A stretch of DNA of 64,000 nt. Origin: Gemmatimonadota bacterium. GTDB taxonomy: Bacteria; Gemmatimonadota; Gemmatimonadetes; Longimicrobiales; Gaopeijiaceae. Every line of letters starts with the position of its first letter. The first letter of the stretch is position 1. The position numbers and the translations under genes are program-made. The notes beneath the pieces are model-generated. The model worked only from the letters and a program-made list of their open reading frames with translations. It was not told the DNA's origin and did no database searches. Positions 41,391 through 53,725 of the stretch are shown piece after piece. The stretch spans positions 124,001-188,000 of the forward strand of contig JAJDXG010000019.1 in NCBI GenBank assembly GCA_022823365.1, in the 5' to 3' direction.

Positions 41391-42212
41391 ATGCGACAGG
41401 GAGCAAACGGTAACGCCCGCTTCGGTCTCGCGGTCCTCGGCGCCGCGGTGGCCCTGGCGGCATCCCCTCTGGCGGCCCAGGAGGCGCTCGCCTTCTCCGA
41501 TGACGAACTCGAGCGCGGGCAACGGCTCTACCAGGCCCACTGCGGGCGCTGCCACGGCGTCCTCGGGATGGGCGGCGAGGGGCCGGGGCTGGCCGTCAGC
41601 CGCCTGCCGCGCGCGCCGGACCACGCCGCGGTCGTCGACGTCATCCGCAACGGCATCGCCGGCACCGGCATGCCGGGCCTGCGCTCCACCATCCTCCCTG
41701 ACGAGGAAGCCGCCCTGGTTGCCGCCCACGTCATCTCGCTCCGTCAGGCGCAGCTCGTGGAGATTCCCGGCGATCCCGAGCGCGGCCGCGAGGTCTTCGA
41801 GACCACGGGCGTGTGCTTCTCGTGTCACATCGTCGAGGGACGCGGGGTCGGGATCGGCCCCGAACTGACCGGCATCGGCATGCGCCGGGGCCCGGAGTAT
41901 CTGCGCGCCTCGCTGGTCGATCCCTCGGCGGAACTTCCGGTCTTCCGTTCGGGGGCGCGCAGCGGGTTCGCCCAGTACCTGCCCCTGCGAGCCGTCACCC
42001 GCGACGGCACCGTCTACGAGGGCATGCGCGCCAACGAGGACGCGTTCACCGTGCAGCTCATCACCGCAACGGGTTCCATCGTGTCGCTGCGCAAGGCCGA
42101 CCTGGCCGAGCTCGAGAAGCGCTTCGGGCATTCCCTCATGCCCGCCACGGCAAGCCTCTCGGGCGAGGACATCGACAACCTCATCGCATACCTGGCCAGC
42201 CTCGGAGGATGA
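41391..42212 (+). CDS. Dihaem c-type cytochrome
   Basis: A 273-aa exported cytochrome with a signal peptide (ending PLAAQ, about 30). Two haem sites: C51-GRC-H55 and C142-FSC-H146. MPGL near 94 may supply a methionine ligand for the first. Residues 150-250 have a haem-free domain of the type found in PQQ-linked cytochromes (PSAELPVFRSGARS). It overlaps or abuts the PQQ dehydrogenase that follows, so it is its likely electron acceptor in the periplasm. GGAGG upstream. Confidence 0.88.
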   Translation: MRQGANGNARFGLAVLGAAVALAASPLAAQEALAFSDDELERGQRLYQAHCGRCHGVLGMGGEGPGLAVSRLPRAPDHAAVVDVIRNGIAGTGMPGLRSTILPDEEAALVAAHVISLRQAQLVEIPGDPERGREVFETTGVCFSCHIVEGRGVGIGPELTGIGMRRGPEYLRASLVDPSAELPVFRSGARSGFAQYLPLRAVTRDGTVYEGMRANEDAFTVQLITATGSIVSLRKADLAELEKRFGHSLMPATASLSGEDIDNLIAYLASLGG

Positions 42213-42214
42213 GC

Positions 42215-43906
42215 ATGATCCGGTTCGCTGCTATTCGGCCCTCAAGGCGCCCTGCCCGCCCGGAGCCCCGCCGCTTGAGCGGAATCATCCACGGACTGCT
42301 GGCATGCGCGATCATCGTTCCGGGATGCCAGGCGGCCCCGGAAGGCGGCGCCCCTGAAGGCACTCCCGACCAGACCAATGTTCCCTTCGAGCGCCTCGTC
42401 AACGCAGACGCCGAGCCCCACAACTGGCTCACATATTCTGGCAACTACGCGTCGCACCGCTACTCCCGGCTCGATCAGATCGACCGCTCCAACGTCGGCG
42501 ACCTCAGGGTGCTGTGGGCCTATCAGATGGACGACGGCATCATCGAGACCACGCCCGTCGCGGTGGACGGCATCCTGTACGTGACCGAGCCGCCCAGCAC
42601 CGTGAGCGCCCTGGACGCGCGCTCCGGCCGCCGGATCTGGACCTGGTCCCCGGAGATGGGGCCGGACGTGCTCAACATCGGCTTCCCGCGCGTGAACCGG
42701 GGGGTCGCGGTCCTCGACTCCACGGTGTTCGTGGGAACGCTGGATGCGCACCTGGTCGCTCTCGACGCACGCTCGGGCGCGGTGCGCTGGGACGTCGAAG
42801 TGGGCGACAACGCGATCGGCTTCTCGCTCACCCTGGCCCCGCTGGCCGTCAAGGACAAGGTGATCGTGGGCGTTTCCGGGGCGGAAGCCGGGGTGCGGGG
42901 CTACATCGACGCCTACGACGCCGAGACCGGCGAGCTGGCGTGGCGCACCTACACCATCCCGGCGCCAGGCGAACCCGGGAGCGAGACCTGGGGCGGCAAC
43001 AGCTGGGAGACCGGGGGCGGGTCGACCTGGCTCACCGGCTCCTACGATCCCGAACTCGACCTGCTCTACTGGCCCATCGGCAACCCGGCGCCCGACTGGA
43101 ACGGCGACGTCCGCCCCGGCGACAACCTGTACACGGACTGCCTGCTCGCCCTCGATCCCGACACCGGGGAAATGATCTGGTACTTCCAGTTCACGCCCCA
43201 CGACACCCACGACTGGGACGCCAATCAGATCCAGGTGCTGCTGGACGCCGAATGGGAGGGCGAGCCGCGCAAGCTGGTGGTGACCGCGAACCGAAACGCC
43301 TTCTACTACGTCCTCGACCGCGAGACCGGGGAATATCTCCACGGGCAGGAATACTCGAAGCAGACCTGGGCCGAGGGGCTGGACGAGAACGGGCGCCCCA
43401 TCGTGATTCCGGGCACCGACCCCACCGAGGAGGGCGTGCTCGTCTGGCCCAGCCTTCAGGGCGCGGCCAACTGGTTCAGCCCCAGCTACAGCCCCCGGAC
43501 CGGCCTCTTCTACCAGCCCACCCGCATCATGGGCGCCGTCTATTTCAAGGCGGACGTGGAGTACGTGCCCGGACAGCCCTACACGGGCGGGGGCGAGCAG
43601 GCGCTCCGGGGCGAGGAAGCCAGCGGAGCCATCAAGGCGCTCGACGCCCTGACCGGCGACCTCGTGTGGGAGTTCCCTCTGCTCTCCCCACCCTGGTCGG
43701 GGGCGATGGCAACCGCGGGCGACCTCGTGTTCGGCGGCGACAACGAAGGCAACATCTTCGCCCTGGACGCGGAAACCGGCGAGCCCCTGTGGAACTTCCA
43801 GTCGGGCGGCGCCGTGCGCAGCGGCCCCATGTCCTACGAGGTCGACGGGCGCCAGCGCATCGTGAGCTCGGCCGGCGGCACGCTGTTCGTGTTCGGTCTC
43901 AACTAG
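42215..43906 (+). CDS. PQQ-dependent alcohol dehydrogenase (quinoprotein), lipoprotein-like
   Basis: A 563-aa periplasmic quinoprotein with eight W-type blades, for example SALDARSGRRIWTW, YDAETGELAWRT and ALDAETGEPLWNF. The active-site region GNPAPDWNGDVRPGDN and FQFTPHDTHDWD is like ethanol/methanol dehydrogenases. Residues 1-40 are a signal with IVPGC, a possible lipid anchor. I prefer the ATG at 42215, six bases after GGAGG, to one at 42209 that overlaps the cytochrome stop. Substrate is some alcohol or aldehyde, electrons to the dihaem cytochrome upstream. No fused cytochrome domain. Confidence 0.9.
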   Translation: MIRFAAIRPSRRPARPEPRRLSGIIHGLLACAIIVPGCQAAPEGGAPEGTPDQTNVPFERLVNADAEPHNWLTYSGNYASHRYSRLDQIDRSNVGDLRVLWAYQMDDGIIETTPVAVDGILYVTEPPSTVSALDARSGRRIWTWSPEMGPDVLNIGFPRVNRGVAVLDSTVFVGTLDAHLVALDARSGAVRWDVEVGDNAIGFSLTLAPLAVKDKVIVGVSGAEAGVRGYIDAYDAETGELAWRTYTIPAPGEPGSETWGGNSWETGGGSTWLTGSYDPELDLLYWPIGNPAPDWNGDVRPGDNLYTDCLLALDPDTGEMIWYFQFTPHDTHDWDANQIQVLLDAEWEGEPRKLVVTANRNAFYYVLDRETGEYLHGQEYSKQTWAEGLDENGRPIVIPGTDPTEEGVLVWPSLQGAANWFSPSYSPRTGLFYQPTRIMGAVYFKADVEYVPGQPYTGGGEQALRGEEASGAIKALDALTGDLVWEFPLLSPPWSGAMATAGDLVFGGDNEGNIFALDAETGEPLWNFQSGGAVRSGPMSYEVDGRQRIVSSAGGTLFVFGLN

Positions 43907-45063: not shown

Positions 45064-45238
45064 GTCGGCGTTCCTCCGGTTTGCGGGGCCTGGGGCGCGA
45101 TCGTCGGCCGCGTATTCCACGGCGGCCGTCCCGCGCAATCTACGCAGCCGGCCGTGAATGCGCCGGAACAGGGAAACCATTACGCGCGCGAGGTCGTATC
45201 AAACAGGTTCCCGCACCCGACCCCCTTTCAGGACAGCG

Positions 45239-46597
45239 ATGCTCTCGCAACCGCAAGGCCGGACGCTTCTCCGCCGGATCCTCGTTCTCTCGACAATCGC
45301 TGCAGTGCCCGCGTCCGCCCAGAATGCGGACCGCATCTGGGGCCGCGTGCACACAACCGAAGGCGGGGTTCACAGCGGCTTCATTCGCTGGGACGAGACC
45401 GCAGCCAACTGGGCCGACATCCTCGAGGCGCGCAAGGAGCTTCCCGAGGAGAACTATTTCGCGTGGCTGGAGGCCCACGACCGGGAGCGGGCGACGCGCA
45501 CCATCGAGCTCCGCGGCTATCGCATCACCTGGGACGAGGTCGATCCCGACTTTCCGATGGAGGTTCTCTCCGGGGTCCGTTTCGGCCACCTGGATTCGCT
45601 GGTCGTGCTCGACAGTGACCATGCCGAGCTGACGCTTCGCTCGGGACGGCGCCTCCGGCTCGAGCCCCGTGGAGGCAGCCGCGGGAACTCTTCCCCGGAT
45701 GTGCACGTCGAGGCGCCGGGCAAGACAGAGGTGGAAGTCGAGTGGGACGAGTTGGAACGGGTGGTGTTCTCCGCCCCGCCGGCGACGGCACTCCCCGCCG
45801 CACCGCGGCTGTACGGCACCACCGTGGATCGGGATGGCCGCCGGTTCACCGGCTACCTGGCCTGGGACCAGGACGAGATTCTCGAGTCCGACGTGCTCGA
45901 CGGCCGGGAGACGCGTCGTCCCAGCGAGCGGCAGGTCCGTTTCGAGCGCATCCGTTCGCTCACGCCAGTGAACCGCGGCACTCGAGTGGAGCTGCGTGAC
46001 GGCGGCGCGCTGGAGCTCGAGGGCTCCAACGACGTCGACCGGCGCAACCGGGGAGTCCGAATCGCCGATCCCGGGCTCGGGGTGGTCGTGGTGCCGTGGG
46101 AGCGTCTGCTGGAGGTGCGTTTCCACGAGGCCCCGGAGACTGCAGGCGAGGGCGACCGGCCGGGTGGGCAGCCGGCAGAGACTCCAGGCGACCGCGGCCG
46201 GTTCGACGGGGGCCGCCTGCTCGCCGGCACAGTGGTCACGCGCGAGGGAGAGGAAGTCCAGGGCGAGCTGCGCTGGGACGCGGACGAGGCGGGCAGCTGG
46301 GAAATCCTGAACGGGGAAGCGGCGGGGATCGAATACGACATCGAATTCGGATTCATCCGCCGAATTGTGCCCGGCGAGGAGGACGGTGCCGCGGTGACCC
46401 TCGCCGACGGGCGCAGGCTGGCACTCGATGGAGCCCGAGATGTGAGTTCGGACAACAAGGGCGTCATGGTCGGGTCCCCGGAGGATTCCGGGATGCGCGA
46501 CGGGCGGCAGGGGTGGCGTCTGATCCCGTGGGACGACATCCGCGAGGTGCGGTTTCGGGCAGGTCCGCCGGATGCGGGACCGGAGAACGGACGATGA
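45239..46597 (+). CDS. Exported protein of unknown family with three internal repeats
   Basis: A 452-aa protein with a signal peptide (ending PASAQN). I do not recognise the family. It contains three copies of a unit starting about residues 32, 190 and 327: IWGRVHTTEGGVHSGFIRWD, LYGTTVDRDGRRFTGYLAWD and LAGTVVTREGEEVQGELRWD. Each is followed by an acidic turn and an I/VLxGxE-like strand, then a strand pair with RI or I-P-W-D-D-I-R-E-V-R-F. These look like small beta barrels. Its stop overlaps the start of the barrel protein that follows (ATGA), which hints at joint function in the envelope. Confidence 0.7.
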   Translation: MLSQPQGRTLLRRILVLSTIAAVPASAQNADRIWGRVHTTEGGVHSGFIRWDETAANWADILEARKELPEENYFAWLEAHDRERATRTIELRGYRITWDEVDPDFPMEVLSGVRFGHLDSLVVLDSDHAELTLRSGRRLRLEPRGGSRGNSSPDVHVEAPGKTEVEVEWDELERVVFSAPPATALPAAPRLYGTTVDRDGRRFTGYLAWDQDEILESDVLDGRETRRPSERQVRFERIRSLTPVNRGTRVELRDGGALELEGSNDVDRRNRGVRIADPGLGVVVVPWERLLEVRFHEAPETAGEGDRPGGQPAETPGDRGRFDGGRLLAGTVVTREGEEVQGELRWDADEAGSWEILNGEAAGIEYDIEFGFIRRIVPGEEDGAAVTLADGRRLALDGARDVSSDNKGVMVGSPEDSGMRDGRQGWRLIPWDDIREVRFRAGPPDAGPENGR

Positions 46598-49017
46598 ACG
46601 GGCGAGACGCCGTTCGGGGCCTTGCGCGCGCGAGTATGGCCCTGCCGTTGCTTGGCGCCCTCGCTGTCCCGGCATCGGGGCAGGAGACCGATGCCGAGCC
46701 CGCGCAATTCGCCGATGACGCGTTCGCGGACCCGGCCGCGCGCGCGATCTTCGAGGCCGCCCACGCGAACTGGAAGTCTGTCGAGCAGTCGGTTCTGCGC
46801 TACCAGGCGGTGATCCGACAGAGGATGGCGGCCAGGATCCGGGCCCCGCTCAAGGACCGCGTCCTCTACCGGGACGAGACCGCGGTGCGTGCCTTCTGGG
46901 ACCACGAATACGACGCGGTGGTGCAGGTGCTGGGTGCGAAATCCCAGTATCCGGGGCACGCGACGGCACGCAGCGAAGGCGACCTGGAGTGGCTCGACGA
47001 CCTGGCCTTCGACGAACCCTTCGACCCCGGTGACGACCGCCTTATGCTGGGATGGTCCGATCCGGAGGAGGAACCGGACGACGACTTCAGGATCCAGCAT
47101 CCGCTGGCGGAGGGCGCCGACAGCCTGTACCGGTACGCGAGCGGGGACACCCTGACCCTTTCGCTCCCCGACGGACGCCGTCTTCGCACCGTGCAGCTAG
47201 ACGTGCTCCCGCGCGAAGCCGACGCCCAGCGCATCGTGGGCACGCTCTGGATCGAGCCGGAGTCCGGTGCGCTGGTCCGGGCGGTCTACCGGTTGAGCCG
47301 CGAGTTCGACGCCATCCGCGACCTGGAGGATCTCCAGGAGGAAGAGGAGGAGGGTTCGTTCAGATACGTACCCGGCCTGCTGAAGCCCTGGACCTTCGAT
47401 CTCTCCATGATCGCCATCGACTACAGCCTCTGGAATTTCGAGGTCTGGCTGCCCCTGTACATGCGGATGGAGGGACTCGCCCGCGCCGGCATCCTCAAGT
47501 TCCCGGTCACGTTCGATATTTCGTACGAGATGGAGTCGGTGACGACGCGCCAGGACATCGAGCGGCTCGAGGCGGCCCGGCGCGAAGCCGCGCGGACGGA
47601 GGTTGCTCCGCCCCGGCCGGACGAAACCCCGCAACTCGTCGAACGGCACTTCGAGACGCGCGACGAGGCCATGGCGTTCGTCGCCGAACTGCTGTCGCGG
47701 GAGGGGGGCGTCGAGTACGAGAGCGCCGAAGACGACGATTTCGCGGCGGAGCGGGACGCGTTCATCATCGCGCCGCGGGAACGGAGCCTGGTCGCGACCA
47801 GCCCGGAGCTTCCACCGCCGATCTGGGAGGAAGCCGTGGGATTCCCGTCGGACGAACGGATTGGCGACTACGTGGAGAGCCTGGCCGAGCTTCCCGCCGC
47901 CGACGTGCCCGGGATGCCCTGGTCGCTCGACTGGGGATGGGGTCGTCCGGGACTGGTACGCTACAACCGGGTCGAGGGGCTGGCAGGGGGCGTGAACTTC
48001 GTGACCGCCGTCTCCGGGCCCTACACCCTGGACGGGACGGCCTTCCTGGGACTCTCCGATCTCGATCCCAGGGCGCGCCTGGACATCGAACGCGAGACCA
48101 GCCGGCGCCGGATGACGCTCGGGGTGTACCGCGAACTGGCGTCCGCCAGTGGGCGTGCCGGCAACCTGGGGTTCGGCAATTCCCTGAACGCCCTGTTCCT
48201 GGGACGCGACGAAGGCGAGTACTACGAGGCGCTGGGCGCGGACCTGAGTTGGCGTCCGCCGACCGACGCGCGCCAGTCCTTCGAGGTCCGGGCCTACGCC
48301 GAACGCCAGTCCGCGCTTGAGCGCAAGGCGGGGTTCGCCCTCTTCCACGCGCTCGCCGACGACTGGGAGTTCCGACCCAACCTGGCGGCGGACGAAGTCG
48401 ACGAGCTGGGAGCGGAGGTGCGGCTGTCGCCCTGGCGCGGCAGCGACCCCTTCCTGACGCAGATCGGGTTGGAACTCTACGGACACGCGGCGCGGCTCTG
48501 GCCGGCGGGGGCGGGCGACCCGGCAACCTACGGGCGCGCCAGCGCCACGCTGCGGGCGGCCGTGCCGCTGGTAGCGCGCAGGTGGCGCCTGGGCGTGGAA
48601 CTGGCGGGCGGAACCACGTTCGGCGAGGCGACGGCGCAGCGGGCGTGGTTCCTCGGAGGTACGCGTACCCTGCGCGGTCACGCGCCCTCGGTGCTATGGG
48701 GCCCGTCGTTCGCACGCGGCCGCGTCGAAGTCGCCCGCACCAGCGACTTCGGTGCATGGAGCATCTTCACGGACGCGGGATGGGCCAGCCACGTTGGCGG
48801 CTACTATTCCGCGGATGCGGGCGGGGACGCGACGGACCCGGATGGCCCAGGGGAGAGACCGGGAACGACCCGGGCGCCGGCGGACGGCGGGTTGCTCTGG
48901 GGGGCCGGGGTCGGCGGCAGTCTTCTCGACGGACTCATCCGCGCCGACGTGTCCTACGGGCTCAACGGGCCCGCGCGGCGGTTCTGGATCGCGTTCTACC
49001 TCGACTCGCTGCTCTAG
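46594..49017 (+). CDS. Outer-membrane protein with C-terminal BamA/ShlB-like barrel
   Basis: An 807-aa exported protein (signal ending VPASGQ, about 27). The N-terminal half (about 30-400) is a soluble region with LTLSLPDGRRLRTVQLDVLP and a hydrophobic stretch near 265-300. The C-terminal half (about 430-807) is strand-rich and contains FLGGTRTLRGHAP, the L6-type motif of BamA/FhaC barrels, and ends IAFYLDSLL. Reminiscent of DUF5686-like proteins. It is coupled to the triplicated-repeat protein by ATGA. Function unknown; export, assembly or surface binding are possible. Confidence 0.75.
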   Translation: MNGRDAVRGLARASMALPLLGALAVPASGQETDAEPAQFADDAFADPAARAIFEAAHANWKSVEQSVLRYQAVIRQRMAARIRAPLKDRVLYRDETAVRAFWDHEYDAVVQVLGAKSQYPGHATARSEGDLEWLDDLAFDEPFDPGDDRLMLGWSDPEEEPDDDFRIQHPLAEGADSLYRYASGDTLTLSLPDGRRLRTVQLDVLPREADAQRIVGTLWIEPESGALVRAVYRLSREFDAIRDLEDLQEEEEEGSFRYVPGLLKPWTFDLSMIAIDYSLWNFEVWLPLYMRMEGLARAGILKFPVTFDISYEMESVTTRQDIERLEAARREAARTEVAPPRPDETPQLVERHFETRDEAMAFVAELLSREGGVEYESAEDDDFAAERDAFIIAPRERSLVATSPELPPPIWEEAVGFPSDERIGDYVESLAELPAADVPGMPWSLDWGWGRPGLVRYNRVEGLAGGVNFVTAVSGPYTLDGTAFLGLSDLDPRARLDIERETSRRRMTLGVYRELASASGRAGNLGFGNSLNALFLGRDEGEYYEALGADLSWRPPTDARQSFEVRAYAERQSALERKAGFALFHALADDWEFRPNLAADEVDELGAEVRLSPWRGSDPFLTQIGLELYGHAARLWPAGAGDPATYGRASATLRAAVPLVARRWRLGVELAGGTTFGEATAQRAWFLGGTRTLRGHAPSVLWGPSFARGRVEVARTSDFGAWSIFTDAGWASHVGGYYSADAGGDATDPDGPGERPGTTRAPADGGLLWGAGVGGSLLDGLIRADVSYGLNGPARRFWIAFYLDSLL

Positions 49018-49036
49018 CGGTCCGTGGGTGAATCTC

Positions 49037-49053
49037 CCGGGCGTTCAACCCGG
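49037..49053 (+). terminator. Short hairpin after the outer-membrane protein gene
   Basis: CCGGG-7-CCCGG, 20 bp after the stop codon. Short stem, no T-run. Confidence 0.3.
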
Positions 49054-49060
49054 AAGCAGC

Positions 49061-49091
49061 TTGACTAATCGGACTAAGTCCAGTTAGTCAA
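49061..49091. repeat. 31-bp nested inverted repeat between convergent genes
   Basis: TTGACTAA (49061-49068) and TTAGTCAA (49084-49091) enclose GGACT-A-AGTCC (49071-49081). All is centred on 49076, with only the TC/AG step unpaired. The right arm covers the SDR stop codon. It is AT-richer than nearby sequence. Confidence 0.55.
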
Positions 49092-50092
49092 CCGCCGACG
49101 TAGCGGCAGCGGCCCATGTCGCAGCGAATCCCGGTCAGCTCCTGGCTCAGCCTCTTGAGGCGGGCGCGCGCCCGCGGATCGTAGGCCTGGTCGTTGCCGC
49201 GGGCGGGTCTGAGCCCGCTGAAGTACTGCCCGCTCTCGTAGTCGTCGGAATCCACGAGCTGCATCACGGCGTCGGCGCCCTCGTCGATGGTCGAGCGCGG
49301 CTCCACGCCCGCCCGGCGCACCATTCCGGTGGGCATGTAGGTGGCCGGATGCAGCGAGCCGACCACGATGCCGGTGCCTTCCAGCTCTTCGGCCAGGTCG
49401 AGCGTGAACATCACCTGGGCCAGCTTGCTCTGGGCGTAGGCGCGCCGGCCGCTGAAGTCCCTCTCGATCATGACGTCGGTGAAGTCGATCGGCGTCTGGG
49501 CCCCCGAGGACACGTTGACGATGCGCGCCGGCGCGCTGTCCAGGAGCCGCGGCATGAGCATGTGCGTGAGCAGAAAGGTGGAGAGGTAGTTGACCTGGAA
49601 CCGATACTCGTGGCCGTCCTCCGTCAGCAGCCTCTCGTCCGGCGCCGACCCGAAGCCGGCGTTGTTGATGAGGAGGTCCAGGCGGTCGTAGTCGGCGAGC
49701 AGGGTCTCCGCGAACCGCCGCACATCCGCGAGCGAGGCCAGATCGGCCCGGTAGAAGCGGGCACTGCCCGGCCCTGCCGCGTTGATGGCCTCCACCACCT
49801 CCGCCCCCCGCTCCTCGTTGCGCCCGTGCACGATGACGTGATGGCCCCGGCCGCCGAGCCGCAGGGCCAGTTCCCATCCCAGCCCCGACGTCGATCCCGT
49901 TACCAGCGCCACCTGCTGATCGGAAGCGGGCACGGCGGGAGCCTGCGCGAGGACATCGCGGGGCAGGACCGCCCAGACGGCCGCCAACAGGACGGCGGCG
50001 AGCAAAACGTGCCCGCACCGGGAGGATCCCCTCACAGGCCCGCGCTGCCCGGCAGACCTCCCCTTGGCAGACTGCTGGCTGATTCTCGTCAT
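49088..50092 (-). CDS. Short-chain dehydrogenase/reductase with exported N-terminus
   Basis: A 334-aa SDR. N-terminal hydrophobic segment about 28-50 (signal or anchor, ending LAQAPAV), then a Rossmann fold: TGSTSGLG (about 65-72), LINNAG, catalytic S in VNVSSG, and YAQSK. The family oxidises or reduces alcohols with NAD(P)H; the group resembles retinol dehydrogenase/WW-domain oxidoreductase types. An exported SDR is unusual because the cofactor is cytosolic, so the segment may be a membrane anchor. GGAG upstream of 50092. The long region ahead of it in frame is a shadow of the DUF5916 gene. Confidence 0.82.
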   Translation of the reverse strand: MTRISQQSAKGRSAGQRGPVRGSSRCGHVLLAAVLLAAVWAVLPRDVLAQAPAVPASDQQVALVTGSTSGLGWELALRLGGRGHHVIVHGRNEERGAEVVEAINAAGPGSARFYRADLASLADVRRFAETLLADYDRLDLLINNAGFGSAPDERLLTEDGHEYRFQVNYLSTFLLTHMLMPRLLDSAPARIVNVSSGAQTPIDFTDVMIERDFSGRRAYAQSKLAQVMFTLDLAEELEGTGIVVGSLHPATYMPTGMVRRAGVEPRSTIDEGADAVMQLVDSDDYESGQYFSGLRPARGNDQAYDPRARARLKRLSQELTGIRCDMGRCRYVGG

Positions 50093-50278
50093 GACGTGCT
50101 CTCCTTCCCGGGCCGCTTCGTGGACTCGGCAGCAAGTTAGGCTCGGCCTTCCCGGGGCGACAGAGCCCGCTCGGAAGCCATTCGCTGCCCGGCGCGCGAA
50201 ACCGACGGGGACCCGGCGTCGTACGAGCCGCCGATTCTTCGATCGACGAACGGGCGGGCGTGACCAGGGAGGGGACGG

Positions 50279-52957
50279 ATGAACAGCAGATACATGAGAT
50301 GCATACTCGGGCTGGTGCTGGCGCTGTCGGGTCCCGGCGTCGGGATACAGGCCCAGGAACAGGGATCGGCACCATCGTCGGGCGGCGCGCTGGTCGTACC
50401 CGGATGCTGCAGCGCGGAGGATGTGCCGATTCTCCCGGCGACGCGCGTCGCCGATGCGGACATTTCGATCGACGGCCTGATGGAGGAGGCTGCCTGGGGC
50501 GCGGCCGCCGTCGCCACCGGATTCACCCAGTTCGAGCCTGACGAAGGCCAGCCCGCGAGCCAGCGCACCGAGGCTCGCGTCATGTACGGCGCCGCGGCTC
50601 TGTTCGTGTTCATGCGGGCGCACGACACCAGCCCGGGCGAGATCGCGAGCCAGCTGACGAGGCGCGACCAGCAGTCGTATTCGGATCTGCTGGGCGTGGT
50701 CATCGATTCCTATTTCGACCGGCGCACGGCCTTCCAGTTCACCGTCAACCCGGCCGGCGTGAAGCAGGACGTCTACCGCTTCGAGGACACCAGCGAGGAC
50801 ACGGGGTGGGACGCGGTCTGGGACGTCGCGACCGCGCGCGATGAAGCGGGATGGAGCGCGGAGTTCCGCATCCCCTACTCCCAGCTGCGCTTCCGGGATC
50901 GCGAGGAGCAGACCTGGGGCATCAACTTCGTGCGCCATCTCGCGCGCCGGGAGGAACTCGCGGCGTGGGCGCCCACGACCCGTGCCGACGGCGGCATCGT
51001 TTCGCGCTTCGGCGAACTGCGCGGGTTGCGCGACTTGGATCCGCCGAGGCGGCTGGAGGTCCTGCCGTACTCGCTGGCCAGCCTGCGGCGCGCGCCCGGA
51101 GACGAGGCCAACCCCTTCTATCGGCCGAACGACGCGCTGGGATCGATCGGCGCGGACCTCAAGTACGGGGTTACTTCCGACATCACCCTGGACGTCACCA
51201 TCAACCCGGACTTCGGGCAGGTTGAAGCGGATCCCGCGCAGGTGAACCTGACCGCGTTCGAGACGTTCTTCCCGGAACGCCGGCCGTTCTTCGTCGAGGG
51301 CGCGGGCATCTTCAATTTCGGCATCGCCCTGGGCGACGGGGACGGCGCCAACGAATCGCTGTTCTACTCCCGCAGGATCGGGCGTGCGCCCCAGGGATGG
51401 GCAGATCCGCAGGGCGGGTTCGCGGATGCCGACGATCAGACCACGATTCTGGGCGCCTGGAAGCTCTCCGGCAAAACGGCGGGCGGATGGTCGATCGGGG
51501 CGCTGCACGCCATGACTTCCGAAGAGCGCGCCGATATCGCGCCGGGGACGGGCAGTTCGTTCCAGCAGCCCATAGAGCCGTTCTCCAACCATGGGGTCCT
51601 GAGGCTGCAGAAGGATTTCGCGGAGGGCCGTTCGGCGGTGGGGTTCATCGGCACCACCGTGAATCGCAACGCGGGCGTCGCCGAGGAGCTGGGGCTGAGG
51701 TCCGCGGCCTACACCGGCGGCGTCGATTTCAGGCACCGCTTCGGGGGCGATGCCTGGCAGCTCGATGGGTACGTCCTCGGCTCGCACGTGCGGGGTTCGC
51801 CGGACGCCATCGCCCGAACGCAGCGTTCGCCGGCCCGGTATTTCCAGCGTCCCGATGCGGGGCATGTGAACTATGACGCCGAGCGCACCAGCCTGGGAGG
51901 AGGCGCGGCCAACTTCGGGATCATGAAGTTCGCCGGAAGCCCCTGGCGCGTCGGCACCGGATTTCAGACGCGCACGCCCGGCTTCGAGGTCAACGACATG
52001 GGCTACCAGCGCGACGCGGACTATCTCGTGCACTGGGTGTGGGGCGGATACCACAATTCCACGCCCCAGGGCCCCTTCCGCAACTGGTTCGTCAACCTCA
52101 ACGCCTGGAACGTCTGGAACTACGATCGGGATCGCGCCGGGACCGGAGGCAACGTCAACGTCAATTTCCAGCTTCGGAACTTCTGGCACGGTTACGCGGG
52201 CGTAAACCAGGAGTTGGGGGCCTGGTCCGACGGTATGCTGCGGGGCGGGCCGCTCGTGAAAACCGAAGGGCAGACGAACTTCTGGGGGGGATTCGGCAGC
52301 GACGCCCGCAAGCCGGTCCGGATCAACGTCAACTCCTGGGGCAACGTTCGCCCCGAGAGCGATTCGTGGTCCTTCGGCGTTGCGCCCACGCTGCGCGTGC
52401 GGCCATCGGGCAGAGCCACCTTCAACCTGGGCGTCATGCTGAGCCGCAATCTCGACGACCGCCAGTGGGTCCGGCGCATCGACATCGACGCTCCCAATTA
52501 CCTCTTCGGACGCATCAACCAGACCACCGTGGGGCTGACCGCACGCATGGACTACGCCTTCACGCCCAACCTCTCTCTGCAGGTGTACGCCCAGCCCTTC
52601 GTGGGGTCCGGAAGCTACAGCGAGTTCAAGCGGGTGGCCGACCCGCGCGCGGAGCGATATGCCGACAGGTTCGAAGCCGTGGAGGTGCTCCCCGAGGACA
52701 GCCGTTATCTGGCCGAACTGGGCGGGAGCCCGGTGTCGTTCGGGAATCCGGACTTCAGCTTCAAACAGTTCCGGTCCAATACGGTGCTCAGGTGGGAGTA
52801 CTCGCCGGGATCCGTGCTCTACCTGGTCTGGTCGCAGGGCCGCAATCACAGCGCCGGCACGGGACAATTCGACTTCGACTCGGACCTCGGCGATCTCTTC
52901 GGTGTCATGCCGGACAACATCTTCATGGTTAAGCTCAGTTACTGGCTGTCTCGGTAG
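50279..52957 (+). CDS. DUF5916 outer-membrane protein with N-terminal CBM9-like domain
   Basis: An 892-aa exported protein. Signal peptide about 1-25; a CBM9-like beta sandwich about 50-235 (ISIDGLMEEAAWGAA, IDSYFDRRTAFQFTVNPAG, WSAEFRIPYSQLRF); then DUF5916, a barrel-like region beginning ALGSIGADLKYGVTSDITLD and DFGQVEADPAQVNLTAFETF, with FFPERRPFFVEGAGIF. The barrel end is GVMPDNIFMVKLSYWLSR. The family is predicted as an outer-membrane porin-like binding protein, possibly for glycans. GGAGGGG upstream. Divergent from the SDR. Confidence 0.88.
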   Translation: MNSRYMRCILGLVLALSGPGVGIQAQEQGSAPSSGGALVVPGCCSAEDVPILPATRVADADISIDGLMEEAAWGAAAVATGFTQFEPDEGQPASQRTEARVMYGAAALFVFMRAHDTSPGEIASQLTRRDQQSYSDLLGVVIDSYFDRRTAFQFTVNPAGVKQDVYRFEDTSEDTGWDAVWDVATARDEAGWSAEFRIPYSQLRFRDREEQTWGINFVRHLARREELAAWAPTTRADGGIVSRFGELRGLRDLDPPRRLEVLPYSLASLRRAPGDEANPFYRPNDALGSIGADLKYGVTSDITLDVTINPDFGQVEADPAQVNLTAFETFFPERRPFFVEGAGIFNFGIALGDGDGANESLFYSRRIGRAPQGWADPQGGFADADDQTTILGAWKLSGKTAGGWSIGALHAMTSEERADIAPGTGSSFQQPIEPFSNHGVLRLQKDFAEGRSAVGFIGTTVNRNAGVAEELGLRSAAYTGGVDFRHRFGGDAWQLDGYVLGSHVRGSPDAIARTQRSPARYFQRPDAGHVNYDAERTSLGGGAANFGIMKFAGSPWRVGTGFQTRTPGFEVNDMGYQRDADYLVHWVWGGYHNSTPQGPFRNWFVNLNAWNVWNYDRDRAGTGGNVNVNFQLRNFWHGYAGVNQELGAWSDGMLRGGPLVKTEGQTNFWGGFGSDARKPVRINVNSWGNVRPESDSWSFGVAPTLRVRPSGRATFNLGVMLSRNLDDRQWVRRIDIDAPNYLFGRINQTTVGLTARMDYAFTPNLSLQVYAQPFVGSGSYSEFKRVADPRAERYADRFEAVEVLPEDSRYLAELGGSPVSFGNPDFSFKQFRSNTVLRWEYSPGSVLYLVWSQGRNHSAGTGQFDFDSDLGDLFGVMPDNIFMVKLSYWLSR

Positions 52958-53023
52958 CGGGGGCGGCCGCGAAGCAGGCGGACTCGCGGCCGCGGTACCG
53001 GGCAGCCCGGCGGGGAGGTCGGC

Positions 53024-53725
53024 GTGGGCCTCCATCGGGAACCCGAGCAGGATCCGGCGGGCATGTTCTCACGGAAGACCAGGCCGGAACGGTTCGCCGA
53101 TCGGCGGGCCAGGATGGTTGCGAGGCAGTTGCGGCGCCGGAACATCCGGGACGAGGACGTGCTCGCGGCCATGGGCGAGGTTCCCCGCGAGCACTTCCTG
53201 CCCCGGGAGCACCGCGCGGCGGCCTACCAGGACCGCGCCCTACCGTTGACGGGTGGGCAGACCATGTCGCAGCCCTATATGGTGGCCGCGATGACCGAGG
53301 CTCTGGAGCTCTCGCCCGGGCAGCGCGCGCTCGAAATCGGCACCGGCAGCGGGTATCAGACTGCGGTTCTCGCGCGTCTCGCCGAGGAGGTCTTCACCAT
53401 CGAGCGCCTGCCCGGGATGGCCGCGGCAGCGCGCGGCCTACTGCGGGACGCAGGATGCGACAACGTGCGCGTGCGCGTCGGTGACGGCACGCTGGGCTGG
53501 CCGGAGGAGGCGCCCTTCGACGCGATCCTGGTGACGGCCGCCGCGCCGGCCGCCCCGCCCTCGCTGGAAGAACAACTCCGCCCCGACGGCGGATGCATGG
53601 TCATTCCGGTCGGGTCGCGTCGGATTCAACAGCTGGTGCGCATCCGGCGCACGCCCGCCGGAACGACCACGGAACGGCTGATGGAGTGCGCGTTCGTGCC
53701 GCTCATGGGAGCGGAGGGCTGGTAG
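53024..53725 (+). CDS. pcm: Protein-L-isoaspartate O-methyltransferase
   Basis: A 233-aa SAM-dependent methyltransferase that repairs isoaspartyl residues. Motifs: PREHFLPREHRAAAYQDRALPL, GQTMSQPYMVAAMTEAL, the SAM loop LEIGTGSGYQTAVLA (about 107-121), and LRPDGGCMVIPVG. I chose the GTG at 53024, which has a good GGGAGG site; an ATG at 53063 is an alternative. Its 3' end overlaps the end of the converging TonB receptor by 23 bp. Confidence 0.9.
   Translation: MGLHREPEQDPAGMFSRKTRPERFADRRARMVARQLRRRNIRDEDVLAAMGEVPREHFLPREHRAAAYQDRALPLTGGQTMSQPYMVAAMTEALELSPGQRALEIGTGSGYQTAVLARLAEEVFTIERLPGMAAAARGLLRDAGCDNVRVRVGDGTLGWPEEAPFDAILVTAAAPAAPPSLEEQLRPDGGCMVIPVGSRRIQQLVRIRRTPAGTTTERLMECAFVPLMGAEGW

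Follow-up and report, generated by a model that had tools for sequence, protein, structure and literature searches.

An overlapping gene pair of Gemmatimonadota encoding a triple-repeat protein and a putative Omp85-superfamily barrel

Do two overlapping genes of a Gemmatimonadota bacterium encode the two parts of one envelope system? The genes, here called P1 and P2, lie at positions 45239-49017 of a stretch of 64,000 nucleotides (assembly GCA_022823365.1, contig JAJDXG010000019.1, positions 124,001 to 188,000 of the forward strand), referred to below as the window, and their features are collected in Table 1. A first-pass annotation, made from the DNA alone, had noted that the two genes share ATGA, which is correctly placed, and had suggested a two-part system in which a triplicated protein of no recognised family is coupled to a BamA/ShlB-like barrel protein. 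The analyses described here address the makeup of each protein, the extent to which the genes stay together, and the origin of the window locus, which carries P1 and P2 of different allele classes.

Three repeats in P1 and a predicted barrel in P2

P1 consists of three homologous repeats, as the first-pass annotation had claimed. The motif recognised then, GxVxxxxGxxxxGxIxWD, occurs as GRVHTTEGGVHSGFIRWD (residues 35-52), GTTVDRDGRRFTGYLAWD (residues 193-210, differing at two fixed positions) and GTVVTREGEEVQGELRWD (residues 330-347), and is only the start of a repeat unit of ~112 residues. In profile-profile comparisons of residues 29-184, 186-300 and 318-446, repeats 1 and 2 were matched at a probability of 99.6% (score 142), repeats 1 and 3 at 99.5% (score 128) and repeats 2 and 3 at 99.9% (score 204), in each case over 112-113 columns and far above the top scores of 40 column shuffles per pair (19.1, 18.6 and 20.9, respectively). 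A similar strand pattern also occurs three times in the predicted structure of P1 (53-row alignment; predicted local distance difference test, pLDDT, 88.9; predicted template modelling score, pTM, 0.87), which is nearly all beta and depicts three similar all-beta domains. A division into six half-units, proposed when [FW]xxI was seen six times by eye, is not claimed because first and second halves were matched at a probability of at most 44% over 12 columns. The P1 frame is also open from an upstream ATG at 45158, and relatives of the window's genus align from the first residue when the start is placed at 45239; a similar hydrophobic stretch, judged by eye, opens most P1 relatives.

No family of Pfam or NCBIfam was matched by the window P1 over threshold (best DUF2442, expectation value, E, 0.031), no relative was found among Protein Data Bank (PDB) sequences, and its bPH_6 score of 12.5 bits lies under the Pfam cut-off of 22. 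When 53 P1 relatives were scanned singly at E <= 0.1, 11 matched bPH_6 and 10 matched YcxB; one of ten relatives inspected, L158, reached 36.7 bits for bPH_6, above the cut-off, with no single significant stretch, and the other matches of these ten to the two families (L134, L144, L152) cover 22-29 residues around residues 267-299. The absence of a known family thus holds for the window protein and is qualified by one distant relative.

The P1 model had no match in the PDB at E <= 0.001 with Foldseek. The top three fold matches of P1 are one protein, HsiE1, whose ImpE domain superposes on repeat 2 (Z 7.2-7.6, 92 residues, 2.4-2.6 Å, 21-22% identity), followed at Z 4.8 by a LytTR domain on repeat 3. 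With Z 7.6, in a range (under 8) that may reflect merely a shared arrangement, the ImpE barrel of HsiE1 is suggestive only as the nearest solved fold to the P1 model. HsiE1/TagJ of the ImpE family has, in the available part of its description, a 12-stranded barrel beside a peptide-holding groove (PMC4239648); P1 has no profile similarity to it and differs by its signal peptide, its three copies and the lack of a TPR domain in the model. Kinship to ImpE by sequence was rejected (probability <=1.5% in comparisons with eight ImpE proteins from related genomes), and the window's own genome gave no match to the ImpE family PF07024. Of 18 pattern-matching stretches in viral contigs, none was confirmed as a viral relative of P1, and nothing in a viral fold library matched at E <= 0.001.

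The C-terminal half of P2 is, by its model (30-row alignment; pLDDT 76.8, pTM 0.72), an Omp85-superfamily barrel. Foldseek matched this barrel to Fusobacterium BamA at E 3.8e-10, and fold comparison of mature residues 412-778 matched it to Deinococcus BamA (VIA Z 21.6, 293 residues, 4.2 Å), with Sam50 and TamA as the next matches. The window P2 had no match in Pfam at E <= 1, DUF5686 included, and none among PDB sequences, where a P2 profile reached E 0.021 at best, to 9ccg. Among 30 P2 relatives searched at E <= 0.1, DUF5686 (PF18939) was matched by 15, Omp85 by 13 and ShlB (PF03865) by 4. The Omp85 matches seen lie below the Pfam cut-off (the closest at 23.7 versus 24 bits), as do all DUF5686 matches seen (cut-off 39.2 bits), of which the three with positions fall within the barrel at 11.8-15 bits; no mention of DUF5686 was found in the literature searched. 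POTRA is absent from the five families matched by these 30 relatives at E <= 0.1, the fold of the N-terminal half alone not having been searched. The earlier label of BamA/ShlB-like barrel therefore stands for BamA, by the model, and is weak for ShlB, with so few matching relatives and no POTRA found.

A LolA-like N-terminal domain of P2, an idea taken from its strand layout, was rejected (probability 1.3% for LolA and 0.1% for LolA_like, with P2 family rows picked by phmmer; a control comparison of LolA with LolA_like gave 94%). Two distant P2 relatives are encoded elsewhere in the same genome (G000:C54:51110-53233 and G000:C63:154279-154608), the second of which was matched by the P2 profile at E 2.4e-8 and by DUF5686 at E 1.0e-4.

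Distribution of P1 and its pairing with P2

In single-protein searches of 147 related genomes, P1 was found in 47 at E <= 0.01 (three weakly, E 0.002-0.007) and P2-family proteins in 135 at E <= 0.001, and a profile search across 395 genomes of the phylum found P1 in 62, of which 57 belong to the window's family. To compare surroundings, 62 P1 loci were taken from a scan, with two short peptide patterns, of an 84,980-species collection; the scan does not list every relative and may leave out the window's own genome. Three of these loci end less than 600 bases from P1; the other 59 are informative and comprise 39 from Gemmatimonadota (including L121-L124, which are contigs of G002, G010, G008 and G009 of the window's genus) and 20 from elsewhere (15 Zixibacteria/GN15, 2 Calditrichota, 2 unassigned, 1 Acidobacteria).

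With P1 and P2 profiles built partly from the same genomes, P2 was found directly downstream of P1 on the same strand at 33 of the 39 informative loci from Gemmatimonadota, eight of these 33 being from the window's genus. By hand count, an in-frame start overlaps the P1 stop at 26 of the paired loci (ATG 11, GTG 15), and across 27 loci the distances of P1 are correlated with those of P2 (r = 0.77, shared ancestry not corrected for). By our own gene calls, any further neighbour family was confined to at most 12 of the 23 loci chosen for holding both genes. The pair is thus mostly kept together in Gemmatimonadota across many genera, and conservation of the kind proposed as a check on the first-pass annotation was found there without being obligatory, since six Gemmatimonadota loci and all 20 informative loci from other phyla lack P2. 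As separate observations, an in-frame TAG interrupts P1 at L067 and L129 (G058), which have no P2 nearby and of which L129 is among the six unpaired Gemmatimonadota loci, and the P2 matches at L064 and L124 (G009) are split over two frames close to the C-terminal end.

The P1-type repeat protein is not confined to one setting. For example, the Gemmatimonadota relatives L116-L120, L173 and L178 have an apparent N-terminal membrane segment, judged by eye, and lack P2 within the stretch retrieved, which suggests work outside the cytoplasm and argues against P1 being a mere passenger of P2; the insertion in repeat 1 is not present in these membrane-anchored relatives. In other phyla, a same-strand gene of more than 750 amino acids (own gene calls) precedes the P1 relative in 14 of 22 cases; at L152, L163 and L176 this gene encodes a protein of ~950 amino acids that combines BACON-like domains with a type IX secretion tail, and the reverse-strand neighbours scanned at L152 and L163 are TPR proteins. 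Across these settings the repeat protein is probably located outside the cytoplasm.

The window locus is a recombinant

Ten of 11 genomes of the genus have P1 and were compared, and they include a group B (G002, G004, G008, G009, G010) and a group A (G003, G005, G006). The window P1 protein is 92-93% identical to the five group B genomes and 70-71% to the three of group A, whereas the window P2 protein is 72% identical to the four group B genomes measured and 92-93% to group A. Synonymous divergence (dS) follows the same lines, with values for P1 of 0.14-0.17 versus group B and 0.71-0.79 versus group A, and for P2 of 0.78-0.81 versus group B and 0.17-0.20 versus group A; among 35 dS values from five flanking genes, 31 lie at 0.1-0.4 and the others are 0.08, 0.43, 0.48 and 0.55. 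In trees, the window P1 falls with group B (support 99/99, or 100/99 with G001) and the window P2 with group A (100/100). The remaining genome named here, G001, is 77% (P1) and 73% (P2) identical to the window protein; its P1 looks mosaic, with repeat 1 92% and repeat 2 only 71% identical to the window, and its P2 clusters with group B.

The change of class is located by sites that distinguish the groups, sites matching neither group being omitted. The window follows group B at 165 of 165 sites from 45650 to 46549, group A at 443 and group B at 29 sites from 46555 to about 50900, and group B at 68 and group A at 7 sites from 51400 to 53400. The other-class segment, 46549-51400, has a sharp left end (46549-46555) and a gradual right end (about 50900-51400), and spans the P1 tail, P2, a gene for a short-chain dehydrogenase/reductase (SDR) and the first part of a CBM9/DUF5916 gene. 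Because the switch lies in P1 codons 437-439, where the final strand of repeat 3 ends, the P1 body is of one class and its tail, P2 and the genes that follow are of the other. Over P1 residues 438-452 the identity is 87% with G006, 67% with G003 and 36% with both G004 and G008; residues 443-452 have pLDDT <50 in the P1 model. The window locus is therefore a recombinant, and each of the two genes has been exchanged between related strains within the genus.

It is possible, though rather doubtful, that these are old allele classes kept and reshuffled by balancing or diversifying selection through exposure to phage, host or kin, a proposal compatible with each of the functional readings discussed below. 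A dS of about 0.8 between classes in both genes, compared to the much lower values of most flanking comparisons, the opposite and strongly supported tree positions of the window P1 and P2, and the greater divergence between classes of the P2 barrel (68% identity) than of the P2 N-terminal domain (75%) are all consistent with such selection. However, an old introgression from a sister lineage would look alike without selection, dN/dS (the nonsynonymous to synonymous ratio) is about 0.2-0.3, with no positive selection shown, and the sample is ten genomes. An assembly chimera is an unlikely source of the mixed class, as the group-A-like stretch has two ends and, within P2, its DNA matches group A at 91-96% identity rather than at close to 100%.

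Table 1. Features of the P1-P2 locus, in window coordinates
Feature	Position	Strand	Remarks
P1 gene	45239-46597	+	452 aa (amino acids); start ATG 45239, stop TGA 46597
P1 predicted Sec signal peptide plus first mature residue, residues 1-28	45239..45322	+	by eye
P1 repeat 1, residues 29-184	45323..45790	+	with insertion (helix and strands)
P1 repeat 2, residues 186-300	45794..46138	+	domain matching the ImpE fold
P1 linker, residues 301-321	46139..46201	+	partly pLDDT <50 (mature residues 277-279, 284-286)
P1 repeat 3, residues 322-439	46202..46555	+	to the end of its last strand
Allele-class switch, P1 codons 437-439	46549..46555		B-like left, A-like right; sites and trees
P1 C-terminal tail, residues 440-452 and stop	46556..46597	+	allele class of P2, unlike P1 body
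P2/P1 start-stop overlap, ATGA	46594..46597	+	in-frame ATGA/GTGA in 26/33 paired loci
P2 gene	46594-49017	+	807 aa; start ATG 46594, stop TAG 49017
P2 predicted signal peptide, residues 1-29	46594..46680	+	by eye
P2 N-terminal, presumably periplasmic, domain, residues 30-340	46681..47613	+	long strands after a helix; no POTRA family matched
P2 middle part, residues 341-440	47614..47913	+	mainly helices and loops
P2 predicted Omp85-superfamily beta-barrel, residues 441-807 and stop	47914..49017	+	model, fold matches

Elsewhere in the window, 41391-43906 holds a cytochrome c gene and, after it, a pyrroloquinoline quinone (PQQ)-type dehydrogenase gene, the two overlapping in our own gene calls and both being present in eight other genomes of the genus, and 50279-52957 encodes a protein whose start is weakly CBM9-like and which has a DUF5916 domain.

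Proposed roles of the two proteins

We tentatively propose, at somewhat short of an even chance, that P1 and P2 form a two-gene envelope unit in which the P2 barrel sits in the outer membrane and P1 is a periplasmic accessory. P1 would be exported via Sec and retained in the periplasm, its three beta-domains forming a row, and P2 would lie in the outer membrane with its non-POTRA domain facing the periplasm. By docking on the periplasmic side of P2, P1 may fill the place of POTRA domains or of the BamB-type partners of BAM, and may help P2 to pass or insert a dedicated substrate. The disordered C-terminal tail of P1 would be the best single candidate for contact with P2, a suggestion drawn from one recombinant, in which the break may also have fallen at the tail by chance. 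The tight spacing and the kept pair in Gemmatimonadota agree with the two-part envelope system of the first-pass annotation, of which the physical partnership is the conjectural part. Several points weigh against this proposal: P1 occurs without P2 at 26 of the 59 informative loci (6 of 39 in Gemmatimonadota, 20 of 20 in other phyla), the P2 model has only fair confidence, signal peptides and membrane segments were assigned by eye, and the folded part of P1 is not tied to a single class of P2, as recombination occurred between the genes.

P1 and P2 may instead be neighbours only, envelope proteins made together with independent roles, P1 for example as a periplasmic ligand or peptide binder and P2 as an outer-membrane gate. 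The loci with P1 and no P2, the wide occurrence of P2-family proteins compared to P1 in the related genomes, and the exchange of P2 without the P1 body are in line with this explanation, which we nevertheless consider unlikely given that adjacency and overlap are kept over many genera in differing surroundings.

Another explanation is that P1 is the substrate, carried across the outer membrane by P2 acting as an exporter like those of two-partner secretion (TPS), with P1 as a non-canonical passenger. A gene for an exported protein does come first, beside one for an Omp85-superfamily barrel, some P2 relatives have weak ShlB (4 of 30) or Omp85 (13 of 30) matches, and many P1 relatives of Zixibacteria and Calditrichota follow a gene for a large protein, the three scanned having a type IX secretion tail. 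However, TpsB and TpsA of two-partner secretion are characterised by features not seen here, as no POTRA was found in P2 and no TPS-domain family is among the best 25 of 26 families for 53 P1 relatives; in addition, P1 relatives occur without an adjoining P2, some with a membrane segment, so we regard a passenger role as quite improbable.

Comparison with known systems sets the proposed two-gene unit in context. P2 has the C-terminal barrel fold of the Omp85/TpsB superfamily (BamA, TamA, Sam50, FhaC) in common, and differs by its N-terminal domain and by matches that, where seen, do not reach Pfam cut-offs. In the BamA and TamA subfamilies POTRA domains precede the barrel, whereas none was found in P2, for which the fair model shows a helix and long strands. 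Omp85 proteins of non-POTRA types have been described, and the available part of one account lists WD40, patatin, metalloprotease and noNterm types (PMC4104836); the P2 N-terminal domain belongs to none of the types listed there. The Borrelia BBJ23-29 locus is also alike in that a POTRA-free Omp85 barrel is encoded beside periplasmic proteins; its seven genes include those for periplasmic carriers, an ABC transporter and a LolA-like protein, and no P1-like protein appears in the available part of its description (PMC13078400).

A more far-reaching proposal, which we put forward as speculative and distinctly unlikely, is that the pair is a POTRA-free two-part Omp85 machine in which the row of beta-domains of P1 does the periplasmic work, and that its old allele classes recombine in such a way that the P2-contacting tail moves with P2. 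The well-studied bacterial Omp85 machines take their substrates via POTRA domains and partner proteins, so a kept pair with no detectable POTRA domain, yet with a dedicated repeat protein, would mean another solution. In addition, the natural recombinant, with P1 of one class and P2 of the other, makes partner specificity testable.

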